From: Thermincola carboxydiphila | Lineage (GTDB): Bacteria; Bacillota; Thermincolia; Thermincolales; UBA2595 | Assembly (NCBI GenBank): GCA_016841325.1 | Contig: JAENZJ010000016.1 | Coordinates: 1 to 64,000 of the forward strand | Reading direction: 5' to 3' | DNA length: 64,000 nucleotides | Shown here: in pieces, positions 48,061 through 56,465 of the stretch | How the letters are laid out: each line of letters begins with the position of its first letter | Position numbering within the stretch: position 1 is the stretch's first letter | The notes under the pieces: generated by a model | Seen by the model: the letters and a program-made list of their open reading frames with translations, nothing else | Database searches by the model: none | Told to the model about the DNA's origin: nothing | Program-made: the position numbers and the translations under genes

Positions 48061-49557
48061 TTATACCATTGGTTTGATTTCATTATTTGACCACTTATGG
48101 GGATCTTTTAATGAATTTTTTATAATATAACACAAAGTTTTTATCCCTTCGTTAATTAACTCAGGTTTTGTATATGAGAAATTCAGCCGTATTTTGTTAT
48201 GCCCGTCACTGTTGTGATAAAAGACCGGCCCGGCAACAAATGACACTTTGTTTTTAACAGCTTCCTGCAATACCTGTATTGCGGACAGGTTTTCCGGCAG
48301 GGTAGCCCATATGTAAAAACCACCGGTAGGTTTGTTCCATTGCAGCCCCCTGGGTGCATGCTTTTCCAGAGCTGCAAGCATCAGGTGAAGTTTATCTGAA
48401 TAATATCTGCGGGAACGGATAATGTGGTCTTGGAGGTGACCTTCCCTGTAAAACAGATCTACCATTCGTTGTAAAACATTATTTGTATGTAAATTGGTAA
48501 GCTGTTTTCCGGCGGCAACAAATGGAGTGAGGCTTGGCGGAGTTGCCATCCACCCTAAGCGCAGTCCCGGACATAACATTTTTGACATAGAGCTGACATA
48601 CACCACATTTCCGTGTTTGTCTAAGGATTTTAATGCCGGCGTCTCTGATTCTCCGTAATTCAACAACCCATAAGCATCATCCTCAATAATGGGTATATGG
48701 TGTTTTCCCGCTATTTCCAACAACCTTTGGCGGCGTTCCATGCTCATACAAACACCGGTGGGGTTTTGAAAAGTGGGGATAGTATAAATAAATTTGGGTC
48801 TCACCCGGCAAATAATGTTTTCCAGTCGGCTGACAACCATACCGTCACTGTCAACCGGCACACCGATGATTCTCACTCCATATGCCCGAAAAATATCTAT
48901 TGCCCCCAAAAATGTAGGCTCTTCCATAATCACACAGTCTCCCGGTTCCAAAAGAATGCGGCTGATAAGATCCAGTCCTTCCTGTGAACCGTTGAGAACT
49001 ATAATGTTATCCGGAGATACTTCCACAGATCGGTTTTGCATAATGGATGTCAGTGTTTCCCGAAATGACCTGATACCGTGGGCAGAGTCATACTGTAAAA
49101 TTACATCAGCCTCAGAAAACAGAATTTTTTGACAGATTTCTGCAAACTTCTTTTTTGGATATAATTCAGGTGCGGCAATCCCTGAATCCATTGCAATTAA
49201 ATCTCTTTGCCGGAGCAGTTCCGACATTGTGAAATTATAAGCATTCATCAGGCTCTCACCGTGACCGCTTAACAACTCCTGCCATCCAAAAGAATCAGCC
49301 TGTTCCCTGAACTGCACTGATGTAACCACAGTACCTTTTCCAACATGTGGAGTAACATATCCTTGCTTTTCCAGGTCATGATAGGCATTTATTACTGTGC
49401 TTCTGTTTACACCCAGTATGGCCGCAAGCTTTCGTTCGGCAGGCAGGCATACCCCCTCTTTTAATGTTCCCACAGTTATATTATCAATAATCTGACTGGC
49501 AATTTGTCGGTATAAAGGAGTCTTGCTCTGGCGGTCCAATTTTATTTTAATCTCCAA
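48061..49557 (-). CDS. MocR-type regulator (GntR winged helix fused to a PLP aminotransferase domain)
   Basis: 498 aa. Residues 1-75 form a GntR winged helix (GVCLPAERKLAAILGVNRST, YHDLEKQGYVTPHVGKGTVV). Residues 110-480 are a fold-type I aminotransferase with the PLP lysine in YVSSMSKMLCPGLRLGWM and the ring-contact region IEDDAYGLLNYGE. MocR proteins usually regulate neighbouring genes in response to an amino-compound or PLP; some are true aminotransferases. TTG start with ggaggg 6 bases upstream. Likely targets are itself, the SpeD-like gene or the GltS-type gene on either side. Confidence 0.87.
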   Translation of the reverse strand: MEIKIKLDRQSKTPLYRQIASQIIDNITVGTLKEGVCLPAERKLAAILGVNRSTVINAYHDLEKQGYVTPHVGKGTVVTSVQFREQADSFGWQELLSGHGESLMNAYNFTMSELLRQRDLIAMDSGIAAPELYPKKKFAEICQKILFSEADVILQYDSAHGIRSFRETLTSIMQNRSVEVSPDNIIVLNGSQEGLDLISRILLEPGDCVIMEEPTFLGAIDIFRAYGVRIIGVPVDSDGMVVSRLENIICRVRPKFIYTIPTFQNPTGVCMSMERRQRLLEIAGKHHIPIIEDDAYGLLNYGESETPALKSLDKHGNVVYVSSMSKMLCPGLRLGWMATPPSLTPFVAAGKQLTNLHTNNVLQRMVDLFYREGHLQDHIIRSRRYYSDKLHLMLAALEKHAPRGLQWNKPTGGFYIWATLPENLSAIQVLQEAVKNKVSFVAGPVFYHNSDGHNKIRLNFSYTKPELINEGIKTLCYIIKNSLKDPHKWSNNEIKPMV

Positions 49558-49819: not shown

Positions 49820-51256
49820 CTATTTCTCTCCGGCCCTGGGTGCCAGCTTATTGCTGTTGTACCAGAAGCCTAACATCTTCGCTGCACCCAGTAATCCAAG
49901 AGCTGCAGTCACCAAAACTAAAGTTGTCCATAAACCGTACGTTGCAAAGAACACAGGACTTAATGCCACCAGAAACAATTCGATAGGAGCAATCAGAATA
50001 TAAGCCAATCCGTAATCTTCAAGAGCTTCACTCACAAAATCAGGGTCAACAATTCTCAGCAGGATTACCCCAAAAGCTACGACCCCGGTACTCCATCCAA
50101 AGGTGAATATTCCCCTCTCAAACCAATAATTACTTAACATTCTTGGTCCAAGAATATACAGATTAAAAAGTACCCATAAAATCCCCACAACTATCAGGAA
50201 CAACAGCGGCTGCCAGAATTGAACCACTACCGATATTTTAATTGAAGCAACTCCAAAACCAACCATATAGTCCGAAACGCCGCTTCCTATTCTGGTTACC
50301 ACTTTCTTATCAATATATCCGTCCATATTTAGCATCATCAGGAGTCTCTGGACTACAATGGCAGCAATCATGGCTGTTGAAACCTCAGGCATGTACAGGG
50401 GCTTCCCGCCAATGGTCAGCCAGGATATTTCCCCTATCCACTTGGTGAGGTAAATCCCGCCAAGGGTAGCAAAGAGAATGATAGCAGAATGCCAGGCCAG
50501 TGGGTCCATTGACATGGGAGACACAGTCTGCTCACCTACCGAGGCCCTCTCGCCCGGTGGCACAAGTCCTGTCCGCATTGACTCAGGAAGGGTGTAGGCT
50601 TCCTTAACTATTCTGGTATAACCCTTCCTGGTAGCCAGTTTTATCAGCAGTATCCCACCAAAAATCGCTACCAGCAAACCTATTGTCGCCATTGTCATTC
50701 CAACTGTTATTGCATTTTCAAAACCATATTTCTCCAGTGTCCCGCCAATTGCTGTTGCATATCCATGTCCTCCGGCAAATCCAGCCGGAAGCATCCACGC
50801 AAATCCTTCATGAAGCTGTGGCCACAACAATTTCATTACAGACAATCCGAGCACTGCAGCTATGGCAAACTGGGCTACTTCTGCAAACAGGTTGTACAAA
50901 AACGTACTTCCTGCTTTGTCAATAATAACCTTTTTGGATTCAAGTTTCTTTTGCCCAATAGGGAATGTGGCAAACAGTACAACAACCAGCAACCATGCAT
51001 AACTCCCCATTACAGTCGAAAATGGCAATACATTTAATACCTGGGGTCCTAAAACCAATCCCAAAAAACCCGCAATTACAGAGGCCGGTATAAAAAAGTT
51101 CTGGAAAAAAGGTATCTTGGCCCGGACAACCTTTCCAATGAACAGCAGGACTGCCATAAAACCAAAATCTTTTAGTATCGCCAGTGGTGCACCACCCATT
51201 ACTTTTGCTATAACATCCGGGTTCTTCACCGCTTCGGCAATCATTTCAGGTGTCAT
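49820..51256 (-). CDS. GltS-type (ESS family) sodium symporter in a methyltransferase operon
   Basis: 478 aa with about 11-12 hydrophobic helices. It resembles sodium/glutamate symporters: PASVIAGFLGLVLGP near residue 58, and LPAGFAGGHGYATAIGG near 160, the glycine-rich hairpin of ESS carriers. It is the last gene after the MttB homologue, 75 bases downstream and without an intervening terminator. This suggests it imports the methylated substrate or exports the demethylated product rather than glutamate. Start ATG has gggaggg upstream. Confidence 0.8.
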   Translation of the reverse strand: MTPEMIAEAVKNPDVIAKVMGGAPLAILKDFGFMAVLLFIGKVVRAKIPFFQNFFIPASVIAGFLGLVLGPQVLNVLPFSTVMGSYAWLLVVVLFATFPIGQKKLESKKVIIDKAGSTFLYNLFAEVAQFAIAAVLGLSVMKLLWPQLHEGFAWMLPAGFAGGHGYATAIGGTLEKYGFENAITVGMTMATIGLLVAIFGGILLIKLATRKGYTRIVKEAYTLPESMRTGLVPPGERASVGEQTVSPMSMDPLAWHSAIILFATLGGIYLTKWIGEISWLTIGGKPLYMPEVSTAMIAAIVVQRLLMMLNMDGYIDKKVVTRIGSGVSDYMVGFGVASIKISVVVQFWQPLLFLIVVGILWVLFNLYILGPRMLSNYWFERGIFTFGWSTGVVAFGVILLRIVDPDFVSEALEDYGLAYILIAPIELFLVALSPVFFATYGLWTTLVLVTAALGLLGAAKMLGFWYNSNKLAPRAGEK

Positions 51257-51331
51257 TTCCCATTCCCTCCCTGTATGTTTAAGTGTTTATATATTTCTGT
51301 TTACAGTTTTTGGTGATCCTTCTGCAAATTA

Positions 51332-52771
51332 TTATTTGATACCCGGTTCCATCTCCCTAATTTTTTTGTCTATCTCTTCAGGTATACTGTCCGGAGTATG
51401 ATTTTCAAGAATCTGGCGGGCCACTTCCTCAGCCAGGGTCCAGGTATCTTTACAACCTGCCTGTTCCCAGCCAGCATAATTCGTCCTGTTTGATACCTTG
51501 GGATAATAGAACTCCGTTCGCATCTTTTTTGCTGTCTGTTTTTCAGCCAGGAAGTTGCCTCCAGGTCCCACCTTTGTAATAACCTCAGCTGCAAGAGTAT
51601 ATTCATCAACTTCAATACCCCGTACAGCACGCATTACCTGTCCATTGATATCATTGTCAATTACATACTGGGCATAACTGATTGTCATCCCGCTGTCCAG
51701 CTGGCCTGCGGCCTCATGAATAAAATTGGCCCCTGCAAGTGCCGGCATAAGGGCTGTCAGCACCTTTTCATATCCAGCCTGCTGATCAGGCTGTTTGGAG
51801 TCACTGATACCGCCTGTAGAATAAAGCGGAAGCTTGTAGAACTGGGCCATCTGAGCTGCAGCAGCATTCATTATTCCTGACTCCACACTTCCAAAAAGGA
51901 AGGACATGGTCTGCATATCCATTATTGTAGGCACAGCGGAATATAAAATTGGCGCTCCCGGATGTACCAACTGGCTGAGAACCACGCCTGACAGGGCTTC
52001 CGCATTTAACTGGACCAGTGTTCCGGCCAGGGTGACAGGTGAAGTCGCTCCTGCCAGGGGAGCACACGATGTGGCAACGGGAAGCCCGGCTTTGGAAATC
52101 TTCATCAACATCCGGGTGCGCACATCATCAAATTTTAGAGGACTAAGGATACTGGAAATAAAAGATATAAACGGTCTCTCAACCAATTTATCTAGGCCCC
52201 CGGCAATCTCTGCCGCCATATTAATTACGCGGTCAACCCCGTCCTCAGTAAAGAGGCCGCCCATGATAGGTTTGGTAGTATTGTTTATTGAATGATAGAA
52301 ACGATTAACATCCACTACCTCAGTGTCGAGTTCATTAGGATAACATGGAATTACAAAAAAGTGTATATTGTCAAGTCCGTTAATCAAGCGGGCAGTTTTC
52401 GCAATATCTTCTACAGTTGTTTTTCTGCGTTTCCGGTCAAAGTCTATAACATTGAGAGCCGTACCCCCGGTACCCATATAAACCTTTGTCCCGCCCAAAG
52501 TGATATTTCTGGAGTCATCACCTCTACCGTAAATGGTCACTGTAGAAGGCGCCGTTTCTACTGCCTGCATTACCAAATCTTCATTAAAACAGGCCCTGTT
52601 TCTGTCATAGTCCACCCTGGCCCCTTTTTCGGCACAGAGATCCAAAGCTGCCCGTTCGTGAATCTCAACCCCGGCTTCAGCCAAAACGGTCATCGAAGCC
52701 TGATGAATCTTTTTAATGTCTTCATCGGTCAGGAATTTTAAAGCATTAGATTCTATTCCGCCTTTAAGCAT
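51332..52771 (-). CDS. Non-pyrrolysine MttB-family methyltransferase
   Basis: 479 aa of the trimethylamine methyltransferase (MttB) superfamily. The frame has no in-frame UAG, so it is not a pyrrolysine enzyme; such homologues (MtgB, MtpB, MtcB, MtyB) demethylate glycine betaine, proline betaine, carnitine or butyrobetaine. Seen: SCAPLAGATSPVTLAGTL, LVHPGAPILYSAVPTIMDM and GGISDSKQPDQQAGYEK. It would move a methyl group from a quaternary amine to the corrinoid protein encoded just upstream (27 bases). ATG at 52771 has aaaggaggggg 7 bases upstream. The substrate cannot be told from the sequence alone. Confidence 0.9.
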   Translation of the reverse strand: MLKGGIESNALKFLTDEDIKKIHQASMTVLAEAGVEIHERAALDLCAEKGARVDYDRNRACFNEDLVMQAVETAPSTVTIYGRGDDSRNITLGGTKVYMGTGGTALNVIDFDRKRRKTTVEDIAKTARLINGLDNIHFFVIPCYPNELDTEVVDVNRFYHSINNTTKPIMGGLFTEDGVDRVINMAAEIAGGLDKLVERPFISFISSILSPLKFDDVRTRMLMKISKAGLPVATSCAPLAGATSPVTLAGTLVQLNAEALSGVVLSQLVHPGAPILYSAVPTIMDMQTMSFLFGSVESGIMNAAAAQMAQFYKLPLYSTGGISDSKQPDQQAGYEKVLTALMPALAGANFIHEAAGQLDSGMTISYAQYVIDNDINGQVMRAVRGIEVDEYTLAAEVITKVGPGGNFLAEKQTAKKMRTEFYYPKVSNRTNYAGWEQAGCKDTWTLAEEVARQILENHTPDSIPEEIDKKIREMEPGIK

Positions 52772-52798
52772 ACTAAAACCCCCTCCTTTGTTCCGCAT

Positions 52799-53425
52799 TT
52801 AGGCCATTAATTTTTTGGCCAGCAGCACCGCTTCGGCACCGTCGAAGGCATAACCGTCAGCGCCTATTTCCCTGGCAAAATCCTCATCAACAGGGGCTCC
52901 GCCAACAATAACTTTGGCAGATATCCCTTTTTCTTTGAGTACTTTAACAGTATCCCTCATTGCCGGAAGTGTAGTGGTAAGCAGAGCAGATACACCGACA
53001 ATATCAGGATTGTGTTCCTCCACTGCCCTGATAAAGTTCTCCTCCGGCTGACTAATGCCAAGGTCAATAACCTCAAACCCGGAGCTTTCCAGCATCATAG
53101 CCACCAAATTTTTTCCTATGTCATGAAGGTCACCCTTTACTGTTCCTATTACAACCTTACCTTTAGACTTGACGTCTCCGGCTTTCAACATTGGTTTGAC
53201 TATTTCCAGACCTTCTTTCATGGCTTCAGCACATCTTAAAACCTCTGGGATAAATAATTCTCCGGAAGCCATTTTAGGACCGACAATATTCATAGCTTCA
53301 ATCAGACCATCCTGTACAATCGTTCCCACATCTATTCCCCTGTCAAGAGCTTCTTTGACCAGCTCAACTACCTGTTCTTCTTCTCCTTCAATAACCTGTT
53401 CCCTGAGCTTTAAAATTAGTTCCAT
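52799..53425 (-). CDS. Corrinoid protein of the MtgC/MtbC type
   Basis: 208 aa. N-terminal helical cap domain (about 1-85) and a Rossmann B12 domain with the cobalt-ligand motif GDLHDIGKNLVA (DxHxxG), SALLTTTLPAM and VIVGGAPVDEDFAREIGADG. It carries the methyl group between the MttB-type enzyme and the methyl-THF methyltransferase encoded on either side. Confidence 0.94.
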   Translation of the reverse strand: MELILKLREQVIEGEEEQVVELVKEALDRGIDVGTIVQDGLIEAMNIVGPKMASGELFIPEVLRCAEAMKEGLEIVKPMLKAGDVKSKGKVVIGTVKGDLHDIGKNLVAMMLESSGFEVIDLGISQPEENFIRAVEEHNPDIVGVSALLTTTLPAMRDTVKVLKEKGISAKVIVGGAPVDEDFAREIGADGYAFDGAEAVLLAKKLMA

Positions 53426-53470
53426 TATGCAAGTTCCCCTTTCTTATTTATATCAGTACATGGTTTATTC

Positions 53471-54271
53471 CTAAAATTCCAGTAAACCCTTGCGGAATGC
53501 ATCAAGATAATTGGTGGCAAACTGATCCTGGTTCATTAATACCTCTGCCGCCCTGATGGCCCCCATCATCTCCAGATTGCCCGGATCAAGGATTGCCCCG
53601 TCAAGTCCGGCGAACATACACATAATGAGAAAAGTCCTGTTTAACAGCCCTCTCTTGGGCAGTCCATAAGATACATTGCTGAGACCGCACATGAAGTGTA
53701 CTTCCGGATAGGCTTTCCTGATCCCCCTGATGGTGTCTGTCGCCACCAGACCCATTTCGGCACTGGTACTGACCGGCTGAATTAAGGGATCGATATAGAT
53801 ATCATCCAAAGGCACACCGTCTTTAAGCAGACTTTCAATAAGTTTTATGCCAACTGTAATTCCAGTCTCAGCATCCTTGGGCATACCGTGTTCGTCATCC
53901 ATGACAAGTGCTATAATCCCCGCCTGATATTCTTTAACCAATGGTAAGATGTTTTCATATCTTTCCTTTTCGGCAGTTATAGAATTAATTAAGGGTTTTC
54001 CCCTGTGTTCCTTCAGTGCTGCTGCCAATGCAAGATGATTAGGGCTGTCAATACAGCATGGCCTGTCCACTGCTTCCTGTACTGTACGCACCAGCCATGG
54101 AAGAGCTTCAACTTCTTCATTAATTAAGGTTCCACAGTTGACATCTATATAATTAGCCCCGTTTTCTGCCTGGGCTATGGCACGTCCTTTTACAAACTCA
54201 ACATCTCTTGCTTTGATTGCTTCACTGACTCCCTTAAGACTTGTATTGATTTTCTCTCCCACAATTATCAT
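53471..54271 (-). CDS. Methyltetrahydrofolate:corrinoid methyltransferase (MtgA/MtvA type)
   Basis: 266 aa pterin-binding TIM barrel related to MeTr of the acetyl-CoA pathway. Seen: IIVGEKINTSLKGVSEAI, GANYIDVNCGT, PCCIDSPNHLALAAAL, PLINSITAEKERY, LVMDDEHGMP and MCGLSNVSYGLPKRGLLNRT. It would take the methyl from the corrinoid protein onto THF, feeding the Wood-Ljungdahl or methyl-oxidation pathway. First gene of the operon, after a palindrome and hairpin. Start has gaggtga 6 bases upstream. Confidence 0.92.
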   Translation of the reverse strand: MIIVGEKINTSLKGVSEAIKARDVEFVKGRAIAQAENGANYIDVNCGTLINEEVEALPWLVRTVQEAVDRPCCIDSPNHLALAAALKEHRGKPLINSITAEKERYENILPLVKEYQAGIIALVMDDEHGMPKDAETGITVGIKLIESLLKDGVPLDDIYIDPLIQPVSTSAEMGLVATDTIRGIRKAYPEVHFMCGLSNVSYGLPKRGLLNRTFLIMCMFAGLDGAILDPGNLEMMGAIRAAEVLMNQDQFATNYLDAFRKGLLEF

Positions 54272-54301
54272 TTTTAGTTCACCTCAGTTCCTTTATAGTC
54301 T

Positions 54302-54325
54302 CTCAAATTCAGGCCTGAATTTGAG
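54302..54325. promoter_or_regulatory. Perfect 24-base palindrome upstream of the methyltransferase operon
   Basis: ctcaaattcagg followed by its exact complement, no spacer. It lies about 30 bases before the methyltransferase ATG, right after a TATAAT-like sequence on the minus strand. Placement fits an operator covering the transcription start. Confidence 0.6.
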
Positions 54326-54334
54326 TATTATAAT

Positions 54335-54353
54335 AACACTGCCAAACAGTGTT
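54335..54353. promoter_or_regulatory. Second inverted repeat in the methyltransferase promoter region
   Basis: aacactg, 5 bases, cagtgtt, a perfect 7-bp inverted repeat, immediately upstream of the TATAAT-like box (minus strand). It could be an activator or repressor site. The remaining part of the 264-base gap 54272-54535 is AT-rich apart from the terminator at its far end. Confidence 0.45.
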
Positions 54354-54464
54354 GATAAATAGCAAAATCCTGCTCGTTTTAACACTATCCTATCATATTG
54401 TAGAATTCCATACTATTTTCCGCTATTTTGTCAGCTCACAAGTAAAGAAAATACTGTGCAACAC

Positions 54465-54492
54465 AAAAAAAGCCCTTTATATTAAGGGCTTT
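54465..54492 (-). terminator. Terminator after the second corrinoid protein gene
   Basis: Minus strand: aagccctt / aagggctt stem with a 6-base loop, then seven T residues. It separates the PocR/AraC-corrinoid unit from the methyltransferase operon. Confidence 0.88.
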
Positions 54493-54535
54493 AACCATTG
54501 AACTTAGTTATCCCGGGGGTGTTTTAAAAAACAGT

Positions 54536-55180
54536 CTATTTGTTTTTTAATTTATTGAAGTTATCCTGTAAAAAATTTTTTAATTCAAAGGCATCTTCAA
54601 AGTAGTAATCTGCCCCGATTTCTCTGGCGAATTCGACTGTGATGGGAGTTCCCCCGACAATAACCTTGACCTGCTCCCTTAATCCGGCTGATATAAGTTC
54701 ATCAATAACTTCTTTCATGTCCCACATTGTTGTCGTCAGAAGTGCAGACATCATCAAAAAAACGGGTCTTTCCCTGCGCACCGCATCAACAAACTTCTTT
54801 GGGGAAACATTTACCCCCAGGTCAATGACCGTAACACCAACTGAAGACACCAGCATATTTACCAGGAATTTGCCAATATCATGAAGATCACCCGCAACTG
54901 TACCCAGTACAGCTTTAACACTTGTATTGGGTTTAATTTTCAGGTATGGCTGCAGCTCAGCCATACCTGCATGCATGGCTCTGGTGGACCTCAAGACTTC
55001 AGGCACCAACACGCGTTCAGTCTTAAACTTTTCAGCGATGATGTTTATTCCTGCGATCAGGCCTCTCTCCAGAATCTTATCAGGAGGATACTTTTCGCGG
55101 AGGGCCTGTTTGGTGAATTGTTGTACAGTTTGGGCATCCCCCTCAATAATGCCATTTATAATCAGACTGTAATCAAACAT
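54536..55180 (-). CDS. Second corrinoid (B12-binding) protein
   Basis: 214 aa. Helical cap then a B12 domain with GTVAGDLHDIGKFLVNM (DxHxxG), SALLTTTMWDMKEVIDEL and VIVGGTPITVEFAREIGADY. The ATG at 55180 has aggaggg 5 bases upstream; the frame continues into the preceding gene. It is paired with the PocR/AraC gene (10 bases apart) rather than with a methyltransferase. It may be an extra methyl carrier or a sensor partner of the regulator; the second option is speculation. Confidence 0.9.
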   Translation of the reverse strand: MFDYSLIINGIIEGDAQTVQQFTKQALREKYPPDKILERGLIAGINIIAEKFKTERVLVPEVLRSTRAMHAGMAELQPYLKIKPNTSVKAVLGTVAGDLHDIGKFLVNMLVSSVGVTVIDLGVNVSPKKFVDAVRRERPVFLMMSALLTTTMWDMKEVIDELISAGLREQVKVIVGGTPITVEFAREIGADYYFEDAFELKNFLQDNFNKLKNK

Positions 55181-55190
55181 AATATCCCTC

Positions 55191-56465
55191 CTAGAACAAG
55201 CTGTTACGATATACCAATGGGGCAACCCCAAGGTATTTTTTAAACACTTTACTGAAATAGCTCTGGTTTTTAAAACCCACAGTTTTAGCAACTTCCTCAA
55301 TACTGTATTGGCGTTTTTTCATTAGCTCGACGGCTTCTTCTATCCTGACCCTGGTCAAATACTCCAGGACGGTACAGTCAAGTTCCTGGCGGAACAGCCT
55401 GCTGAGGTGTGAAGGGCTAATATACAAATGAACGGCTATATCTTCGAGCTTGATAGGTTTGTTATAATTCCGGGTTATAAATTCTCTCGCCTTTTTAAGC
55501 ATACTTAAGTGTTTCCTGTCTGTAAGTGCAAAAATATCATTCAGAAACTTGTCTGTTATCTTTTGGGCCTGATAAAACATTTCCTCGATTTTTTCCAGCC
55601 TGTTCAATTCTTCATGATGCTGTTCCAGCACCTGCATGGCCCTTTCCGCATCCACGCCGCCCTCCACTGCTGCCCTGGATACCAGGGAAATTAGTTCCTG
55701 AATCCTTACTTTCACCTGCAGTTTTTCTCCCCTGGCTCTTGCGAACAGGTCAGCAAGAAGGCTGGCAAGGGTTTCTTCAGCCCTGTTGCGGTCACCGATT
55801 CTTATATACCTTAACAGTCTGCGTTCTTTTTTAAGGTAGGCCTCATAGTTATACTGCCATGATTCCTGAGATTTTTTACGTTCTTCAATTTTATTTCTGA
55901 TTTGCTGTTGCATTTTTTTGGCATCTTCAAGTTCATCAAGTATACGCACATTACGTTTAACCACGTGATTGACAACAATAAAAAGAAGGTCTGCTGCTGA
56001 CTGTGTCCGTTCCGGAGAAACCACCTCCAGTTTACCTGCTGCCTCTTTAAGCTTCTCAAAATCTCCAATCCTGGCGTTAAATATCGCTAACTCCTCCCAG
56101 AAAAATTCATCCGGCTCCCATAGCAAGACCTGTCCACAAATAATAGCCCCCACTGCCATACCCCTGATTATTATGGGTATTGCCCAGATGACCAATCCGG
56201 CATGACACCGGAAAAAATATGGTTCTTCCCACTTGGCGGCTTCCAAAGCTGCTCTTTTATATGAGTCCTGGCACTTTTGTGTTCCACCGGGGGATTTCCT
56301 CACAATATTACAAAACTCGCACCTTGTCTGACCCTGAGGTGCAAAAAAGGTCTCTCCTTCCGGTGTAACCGCCTCTGTATGCAGTCCGGTGGCATCTGTG
56401 AAACTGCCCAGGAAATCATTAAGGTATTTAACATTCAACTGTTGATTGTCACAAGATGTTTCCAA
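55191..56465 (-). CDS. PocR-domain AraC-family regulator
   Basis: 424 aa. Residues 10-170 form a PocR sensory domain with cysteines in RCEFCNIVRKSPGGTQKC and FFRCHAGL and a GAIICGQVLLWEP stretch. A coiled coil follows (about 175-235), then a helical region and a C-terminal AraC double helix-turn-helix (about 320-424; IKLEDIAVHLYISPSHLSRL, SIEEVAKTVGFKNQSYFSKVF). PocR domains sense small hydrophobic molecules such as propanediol in the pdu system. Here it likely activates the methyltransferase operon. Start is TTG after ggaagtgg. Confidence 0.88.
   Translation of the reverse strand: METSCDNQQLNVKYLNDFLGSFTDATGLHTEAVTPEGETFFAPQGQTRCEFCNIVRKSPGGTQKCQDSYKRAALEAAKWEEPYFFRCHAGLVIWAIPIIIRGMAVGAIICGQVLLWEPDEFFWEELAIFNARIGDFEKLKEAAGKLEVVSPERTQSAADLLFIVVNHVVKRNVRILDELEDAKKMQQQIRNKIEERKKSQESWQYNYEAYLKKERRLLRYIRIGDRNRAEETLASLLADLFARARGEKLQVKVRIQELISLVSRAAVEGGVDAERAMQVLEQHHEELNRLEKIEEMFYQAQKITDKFLNDIFALTDRKHLSMLKKAREFITRNYNKPIKLEDIAVHLYISPSHLSRLFRQELDCTVLEYLTRVRIEEAVELMKKRQYSIEEVAKTVGFKNQSYFSKVFKKYLGVAPLVYRNSLF

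Follow-up and report, generated by a model that had tools for sequence, protein, structure and literature searches.

A probable quaternary-amine demethylation cluster of Thermincola carboxydiphila that joins a non-pyrrolysine MttB homologue to an ESS-family carrier

The characterised non-pyrrolysine members of the MttB superfamily demethylate quaternary amines that bear an acid group (PMC12155760, PMC8604678). MtpB, MtcB and MtyB of Eubacterium limosum act on different carboxylated quaternary amines with one corrinoid protein and methyl-THF (PMC8604678), and in MtgB the residues Y94, N199, R309 and H345 are named as holding glycine betaine, which is a docking prediction only (PMC6855144). Operons that combine a non-pyrrolysine MttB homologue, a corrinoid protein, a THF methyltransferase and a carrier are already known. 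Only six members of the superfamily have an assigned substrate (PMC12155760), and most of the non-pyrrolysine homologues are without one.

Here, we describe a cluster of this kind in a 64,000-nucleotide stretch of the genome of T. carboxydiphila (contig JAENZJ010000016.1, positions 1 to 64,000; called the window), in which the carrier belongs to the ESS family. For comparison about 450 genomes of one phylum were sampled overall; individual genomes and fetched loci are given as G and L numbers.

Gene content and control region

Six genes and a control region are read on the minus strand from 56465 to 49820, with the gene for a PocR-AraC regulator first and the carrier gene last. The first-pass annotation had listed the same six genes on this strand, in this order and at these coordinates, and had placed a terminator and a palindromic promoter region among them; all of this held.

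55191-56465, minus strand: PocR-AraC transcriptional regulator, 424 aa, TTG start (PF10114 147 bits, HTH_18 81 bits)
54536-55180, minus strand: CorA, methyltransferase-type corrinoid protein, 214 aa (B12-binding and B12-binding_2 domains, DLHDIG)
54469-54492, minus strand: intrinsic terminator, 9-pair stem and T run, between CorA and the methyltransferase
54327-54355, minus strand: promoter-like site TCAACA-17-TATAAT for the enzyme genes (10/12 sigma-70-like, a consensus match only)
54335-54353, no strand assigned: dyad AACACTG-CCAAA-CAGTGTT between the -35 and -10 hexamers, read from the sequence, with a putative function
54302-54325, no strand assigned: perfect 24-bp palindrome CTCAAATTCAGGCCTGAATTTGAG, candidate operator or leader hairpin (shuffle test)
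53471-54271, minus strand: methylcorrinoid:THF methyltransferase, 266 aa (NF005719 347 bits, cut-off 259)
52799-53425, minus strand: CorB, cognate corrinoid protein of the MttB homologue, 208 aa (B12-binding domains, DLHDIG)
51332-52771, minus strand: non-pyrrolysine MttB homologue, predicted quaternary-amine:corrinoid methyltransferase, 479 aa (PF06253 399 bits)
49820-51256, minus strand: ESS-family carrier of an MttB-linked sub-branch, 478 aa (PF03616 57.9 bits, cut-off 26)

In family searches the regulator proved to be a fusion of a PocR sensory domain with an AraC DNA-binding domain, and an orthologue of it with 52% identity is found at the equivalent place in G098. CorA is encoded by the second gene, most likely starts with the ATG at 55180 and has an orthologue (54% identical) after the PocR gene of G098. 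Both CorA and CorB contain paired B12-binding domains and the cobalt-ligand motif DLHDIG (D-x-H-x-x-G), which places them among the methyltransferase-type corrinoid proteins; the top NCBIfam match of these proteins is MtgC, under its cut-off. CorB matched 1y80 (200 bits) and MttC 7xcn (149 bits) in the PDB, and its gene adjoins the MttB gene in L057, L058, L068 and L132. The product of the gene at 53471-54271 has a pterin-binding domain, exceeds the cut-off of NF005719 and is thus assigned to the methylcorrinoid:THF methyltransferases; its best PDB matches were 2yci/2yck (212 bits). Translation of the MttB homologue most likely starts with the ATG at 52771 (479 aa), which is preceded by a strong ribosome-binding site AAAGGAGGGG, and the 9 extra N-terminal residues of a longer call have very low model confidence. 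The next gene downstream of the carrier encodes a MocR-like regulator (48061-49557), separated by ~ 260 bp and terminator-like hairpins.

Since a terminator follows CorA, the cluster is probably transcribed in two units, the first with the genes for the regulator and CorA, the second with those for the methyltransferase, CorB, the MttB homologue and the carrier. A similar hairpin with a T run is present after CorA in G098. The 24-bp palindrome lies directly downstream of the promoter-like site, is unique in the window and was obtained in 0 of 100 shuffles, and is therefore not expected by chance. A PocR-AraC gene directly followed by a corrinoid-protein gene was seen in three genomes (54536-56465 in the window; L058:11367-13404; L060:16527-19312). 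CorA may serve as a second methyl acceptor; a contribution to sensing by a corrinoid protein encoded beside PocR-AraC is conceivable, though no more than an idea.

Identity and phylogeny of the MttB homologue

The MTTB domain spans the whole protein (cut-off of PF06253, 25 bits), which thus belongs to the MttB superfamily (COG5598/PF06253). Its reading frame is without TAG, and Ile331 (numbered from the 52798 start) is found at the column of Pyl334 of the Methanosarcina barkeri enzyme; a pyrrolysine reading is ruled out and the protein is indeed a non-pyrrolysine homologue, as annotated before. In addition, His361 takes the place of Tyr364 of pyrrolysine MttB. Superposition of the predicted structure (mean pLDDT 92.9) with those of MttB and MtgB gave TM-scores of 0.91-0.94. 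A search for charged pocket residues specific to carrier-linked MttB homologues gave nothing clear.

The first-pass annotation had proposed a phylogeny against MtgB, MtpB, MtcB and MtyB. In a tree of 64 sequences, which of these four covered MtgB, the protein fell into a branch of 34 non-pyrrolysine members from Bacillota (97/92), outside the clade of MtgB and relatives (100/99) and outside that of the pyrrolysine MttBs (100/100). This also rules out direct descent from the pyrrolysine MttBs of the same genome. The best MttB match among ten genomes of its own order is only 39% identical and has a TAG, and its closest relatives, with 72-74% identity, are encoded in metagenome genomes of Syntrophomonadaceae and other Clostridia. 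The gene is likely to have arrived horizontally.

The Rfam model PYLIS_3 matched the MttB gene (51709-51806, minus strand) above its gathering score, although the gene is without TAG. A relic or live insertion element was considered and rejected, because non-pyrrolysine relatives in L056, L057, L058, L060 and L063 match as well, indicating that the model largely reads coding homology.

The remaining genome encodes further methyltransferase systems. L004 (G000:C46:1-20000) is a methylamine cluster with two MttB genes, each with one in-frame TAG, and a gene for the dimethylamine methyltransferase Dimeth_Pyl (MtbB) with PYLIS_2, implying that the genome uses pyrrolysine; with the two TAG-containing MttBs, the use of trimethylamine is presumably covered by genes other than those described here. 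On the same contig beyond the window, L006 (G000:C4:82001-90118) contains genes for the methanol methyltransferase MtaB and corrinoid proteins and a sigma-54 activator, and a RACo-type activator gene is located at C4:81273-82046.

The ESS carrier and its recurrent pairing with MttB homologues

The carrier was described as GltS-type before. This is correct at the level of the ESS family, for which PF03616 scored 57.9 bits (gathering score 26), but not for GltS itself: the window carrier gave no match to the gltS equivalog model TIGR00210 (cut-off 310.75), and its nearest relative reached 25 bits. The structural model (pLDDT 81.7) resembles the elevator-type citrate symporter CitS and, weakly, the exchanger AspT; as the TM-scores are low, the match supports a carboxylate-carrier type of fold only. 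An anionic substrate, or a function as exchanger, as suggested by the first-pass annotation, is compatible with the data.

A search profile was built from four MttB-linked carriers and run over 398 genomes of the phylum. The four carriers scored above 830 bits and the next best hit 407 bits. Later matches of the carrier-only profile came from G400 (792 bits) and G429 (709 bits), which represent two other families, and both carriers are encoded directly beside MttB homologues. Thus, the MttB-linked ESS sub-branches adjoin an MttB homologue in 6/6 genomes from five bacterial families, four of these carriers having been used to build the model and only G400 and G429 having been found blind. The chance of a random gene being the immediate neighbour of an MttB gene is roughly estimated at ~ 2% in a genome with 42 MttB genes; therefore, the 6/6 pairing and the two blind cases are far from chance, and give strong support to a role of the carrier in the pathway. 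In the carrier tree, the MttB-linked carriers fell into two supported groups, one of {window, G098} and one of {G381, G298, G400, G429}, the single branch joining them being supported only 73/54. Where loci of the next-tier carriers (407 bits or less, 36-40% identity) were opened, there was no MttB in the fetched stretch, and the neighbours were opine dehydrogenase, alanine dehydrogenase and other genes. In L116 and L118 the carrier gene comes immediately after an octopine/opine dehydrogenase-like gene, and in L113 after one for alanine dehydrogenase; judging from these neighbours, N-substituted amino acids may be among the substrates of ESS carriers.

The whole unit is best conserved in G098. 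All six genes are present with 52-63% identity, and regulator, CorA, terminator, CorB, MttB homologue and carrier follow each other as in the window; only the methyltransferase gene has moved, to the end of the set. In the five-member sub-branch of MttB homologues, an ESS carrier is found only in the window and G098 and an MFS carrier in the other three, and the three nearest MttB relatives encode the MFS carrier where the window has the ESS carrier. Elsewhere in the clade, Opu-type ABC carriers are encoded close by. The carriers are thus modular and replaceable, and, as this holds for the ESS carrier too, the substrate of the MttB homologue need not be unusual. The earlier view of BCCT and OpuD types as the usual partners is too narrow for this clade, in which MFS, Opu-type ABC and SSF carriers are found as well.

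In G381 and G400, which belong to two families, a unit with three MttB homologues runs into genes encoding urocanase and formiminotransferase-cyclodeaminase; genes for imidazolonepropionase, histidine ammonia-lyase and glutamate mutase are also near in G381. The gene order is rearranged between these loci, with three non-pyrrolysine MttB homologues and the ESS carrier among hut genes in L063 and L123 (G381) and in L132 (G400). The urocanase of G381 was also considered as a thiourocanate enzyme of the ergothioneine pathway, which was rejected since its score of 440 exceeds the hutU cut-off of 375, whereas the thresholds of the thiourocanate models are not reached. G298 combines the unit with genes for glutamate mutase and methylaspartate ammonia-lyase, and G429 has only the regulator, two MttBs and the carrier, which makes the MttB-carrier pairing independent of other catabolic genes. 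In the loci fetched from G429 and G098, neither hut nor glutamate-mutase genes could be recognised. Neither MutE nor urocanase was found in the genome of T. carboxydiphila, and the use of hut or glutamate-mutase products was rejected for this organism on these markers. Since the hut and mut genes vary and MttB is present throughout, the MttB homologue is the constant partner of the carrier. In one lineage, the hut and mut neighbours are a hint of betaines that derive from histidine or glutamate.

Two further genes were observed in such clusters. Three MttB clusters (L063:11874-13907, minus strand; L132:2716-4686, plus strand; L060:19308-20000, plus strand) encode a hydantoinase-A-like ATPase (MutL/hydantoinase kind), 49-60% conserved, next to an AraC-type regulator or a corrinoid protein. 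Its two complete copies share a C-x-x-C motif, and it could be a corrinoid-activating ATPase. In G294, a DUF1638 protein is encoded after the MttB homologue (L057:15628-16311, plus strand).

Proposed pathway, alternatives and known systems

Families, tree, fold and conserved synteny all support the reading of the cluster as methylated-amine catabolic. On this basis, the locus is likely to comprise a pair of inducible operons that serve growth with a carboxylated quaternary amine. PocR-AraC would sense a ligand and turn on the enzyme promoter, and the ESS-family carrier would import the betaine, probably with Na+, or swap it for the demethylated product. The MttB homologue would then demethylate the quaternary nitrogen once, with Co(I)-CorB as methyl acceptor; the pterin-binding methyltransferase would pass the methyl group on to THF, and methyl-THF would enter the Wood-Ljungdahl enzymes. 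Stray Co(II) would be re-reduced by a RACo-type activator encoded outside the cluster. The set had been called complete for demethylation to THF except for a reductive activator; indeed there is no activator gene in the cluster, and the genome has four RACo-type activator genes and two CODH/ACS genes elsewhere, so that both the activator lacking in the cluster and the downstream route are encoded there.

Since the known non-pyrrolysine members act on acid-bearing quaternary amines, a carboxylated quaternary amine can safely be inferred, by analogy, as the substrate. A narrower proposal, which we regard as doubtful, is that MttB homologue and ESS carrier form a module dedicated to betaines of amino acids that are acidic or yield glutamate, e.g. 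glutamate betaine or hercynine (histidine betaine), and that in clusters of the G381/G400 type several MttB homologues free histidine or glutamate for the adjacent hut and glutamate-mutase pathways. The open-access papers searched contained no earlier report of such a route, nor of MttB in connection with hercynine, glutamate betaine or an ESS carrier.

Somewhat unlikely, too, is a carrier that works primarily as an exchanger and exports the demethylated (dimethylamino) product for betaine, in the way acetogens excrete such products. Betaine-demethylating acetogens do release the dimethylated product, which in E. limosum is dimethylglycine or dimethylaminoethanol (PMC12155760 and references therein); the lack of the tested hut and mut marker genes in the genome fits this as well. 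The low-confidence fold match, however, is led by the Na+ symporter CitS, with AspT appearing weakly.

It is improbable that the carrier works as an ordinary glutamate symporter which merely shares the operon or island and supplies glutamate or Na+ coupling, unrelated to the methylated substrate. All characterised GltS proteins transport glutamate (PMC12344293), and the hut genes in G381 and G400 and the glutamate-mutase genes in G298 speak for a glutamate-centred metabolism; these genes are, however, the ones whose markers were not found in the T. carboxydiphila genome and which were not recognised in the G429 and G098 loci, and the window carrier did not match the gltS model. A non-glutamate substrate, if true, would widen the ESS family.

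Glycine betaine is not favoured as substrate on sequence grounds, and a glycine betaine system of the MtgB type with an unusual carrier is most improbable. The MttB superfamily is common to both, MtgB is the best PDB sequence match (295 bits), and MtgC is the closest NCBIfam model for the corrinoid proteins, but the clades are separated with strong support and the four residues predicted to bind betaine in MtgB correspond to G112, S216, Y326 and E362. Finally, an MttB homologue that acts on trimethylamine without pyrrolysine, or a pathway running backwards to methylate a tertiary amine, is hardly credible: the score of 479.7 bits with the trimethylamine model TIGR02369 comes near its cut-off of 525 but stays below it, Ile and His361 stand where pyrrolysine and Tyr364 do, the pyrrolysine MttBs form a separate clade, and the genome has two TAG-containing MttBs presumably for this substrate.

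Demethylation of a carboxylated quaternary amine is the preferred reading. The recurrent carrier partner limits the candidate substrates to those compounds which an ESS carrier could take, and these can readily be tested as a set. None of the open-access papers searched describes a recurrent pairing of MttB homologues with carriers of a non-GltS ESS sub-branch.

Compared with known systems, the cluster resembles MtgB/MtgC/MtgA of Desulfitobacterium hafniense in having a non-pyrrolysine MttB-family enzyme of the same fold, a corrinoid protein and a methyl-THF methyltransferase, but its MttB homologue is only 33% identical to MtgB, belongs to another clade and has not kept the predicted betaine-binding residues; in the Methanolobus MtgB locus, the partner carrier is of the OpuD type (PMC6855144) instead of ESS. 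MtpB, MtcB and MtyB of E. limosum (with MtqC, MtqA and RamQ) are non-pyrrolysine homologues as well (PMC8604678), but MtcB and MtyB are encoded beside MFS carriers and unlinked to MtqC and MtqA, whereas corrinoid protein, methyltransferase and carrier are found in one cluster in the window. The choline system MthB/MthC/MthA/MthK of E. limosum also clusters an MttB homologue with a corrinoid protein, a THF methyltransferase and a carrier (PMC12155760); there, the carrier is of the EamA type and a choline kinase is present, whereas the window cluster is without a kinase. Pyrrolysine MttB shares superfamily and fold (TM 0.91-0.92 to 7xcl/7xcn) and differs at the Pyl334 and Tyr364 positions and in its clade. 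The Na+/glutamate symporter GltS has the PF03616 domain in common with the window carrier, which is without a gltS equivalog match, forms separate sub-branches and has MttB as its genomic partner.
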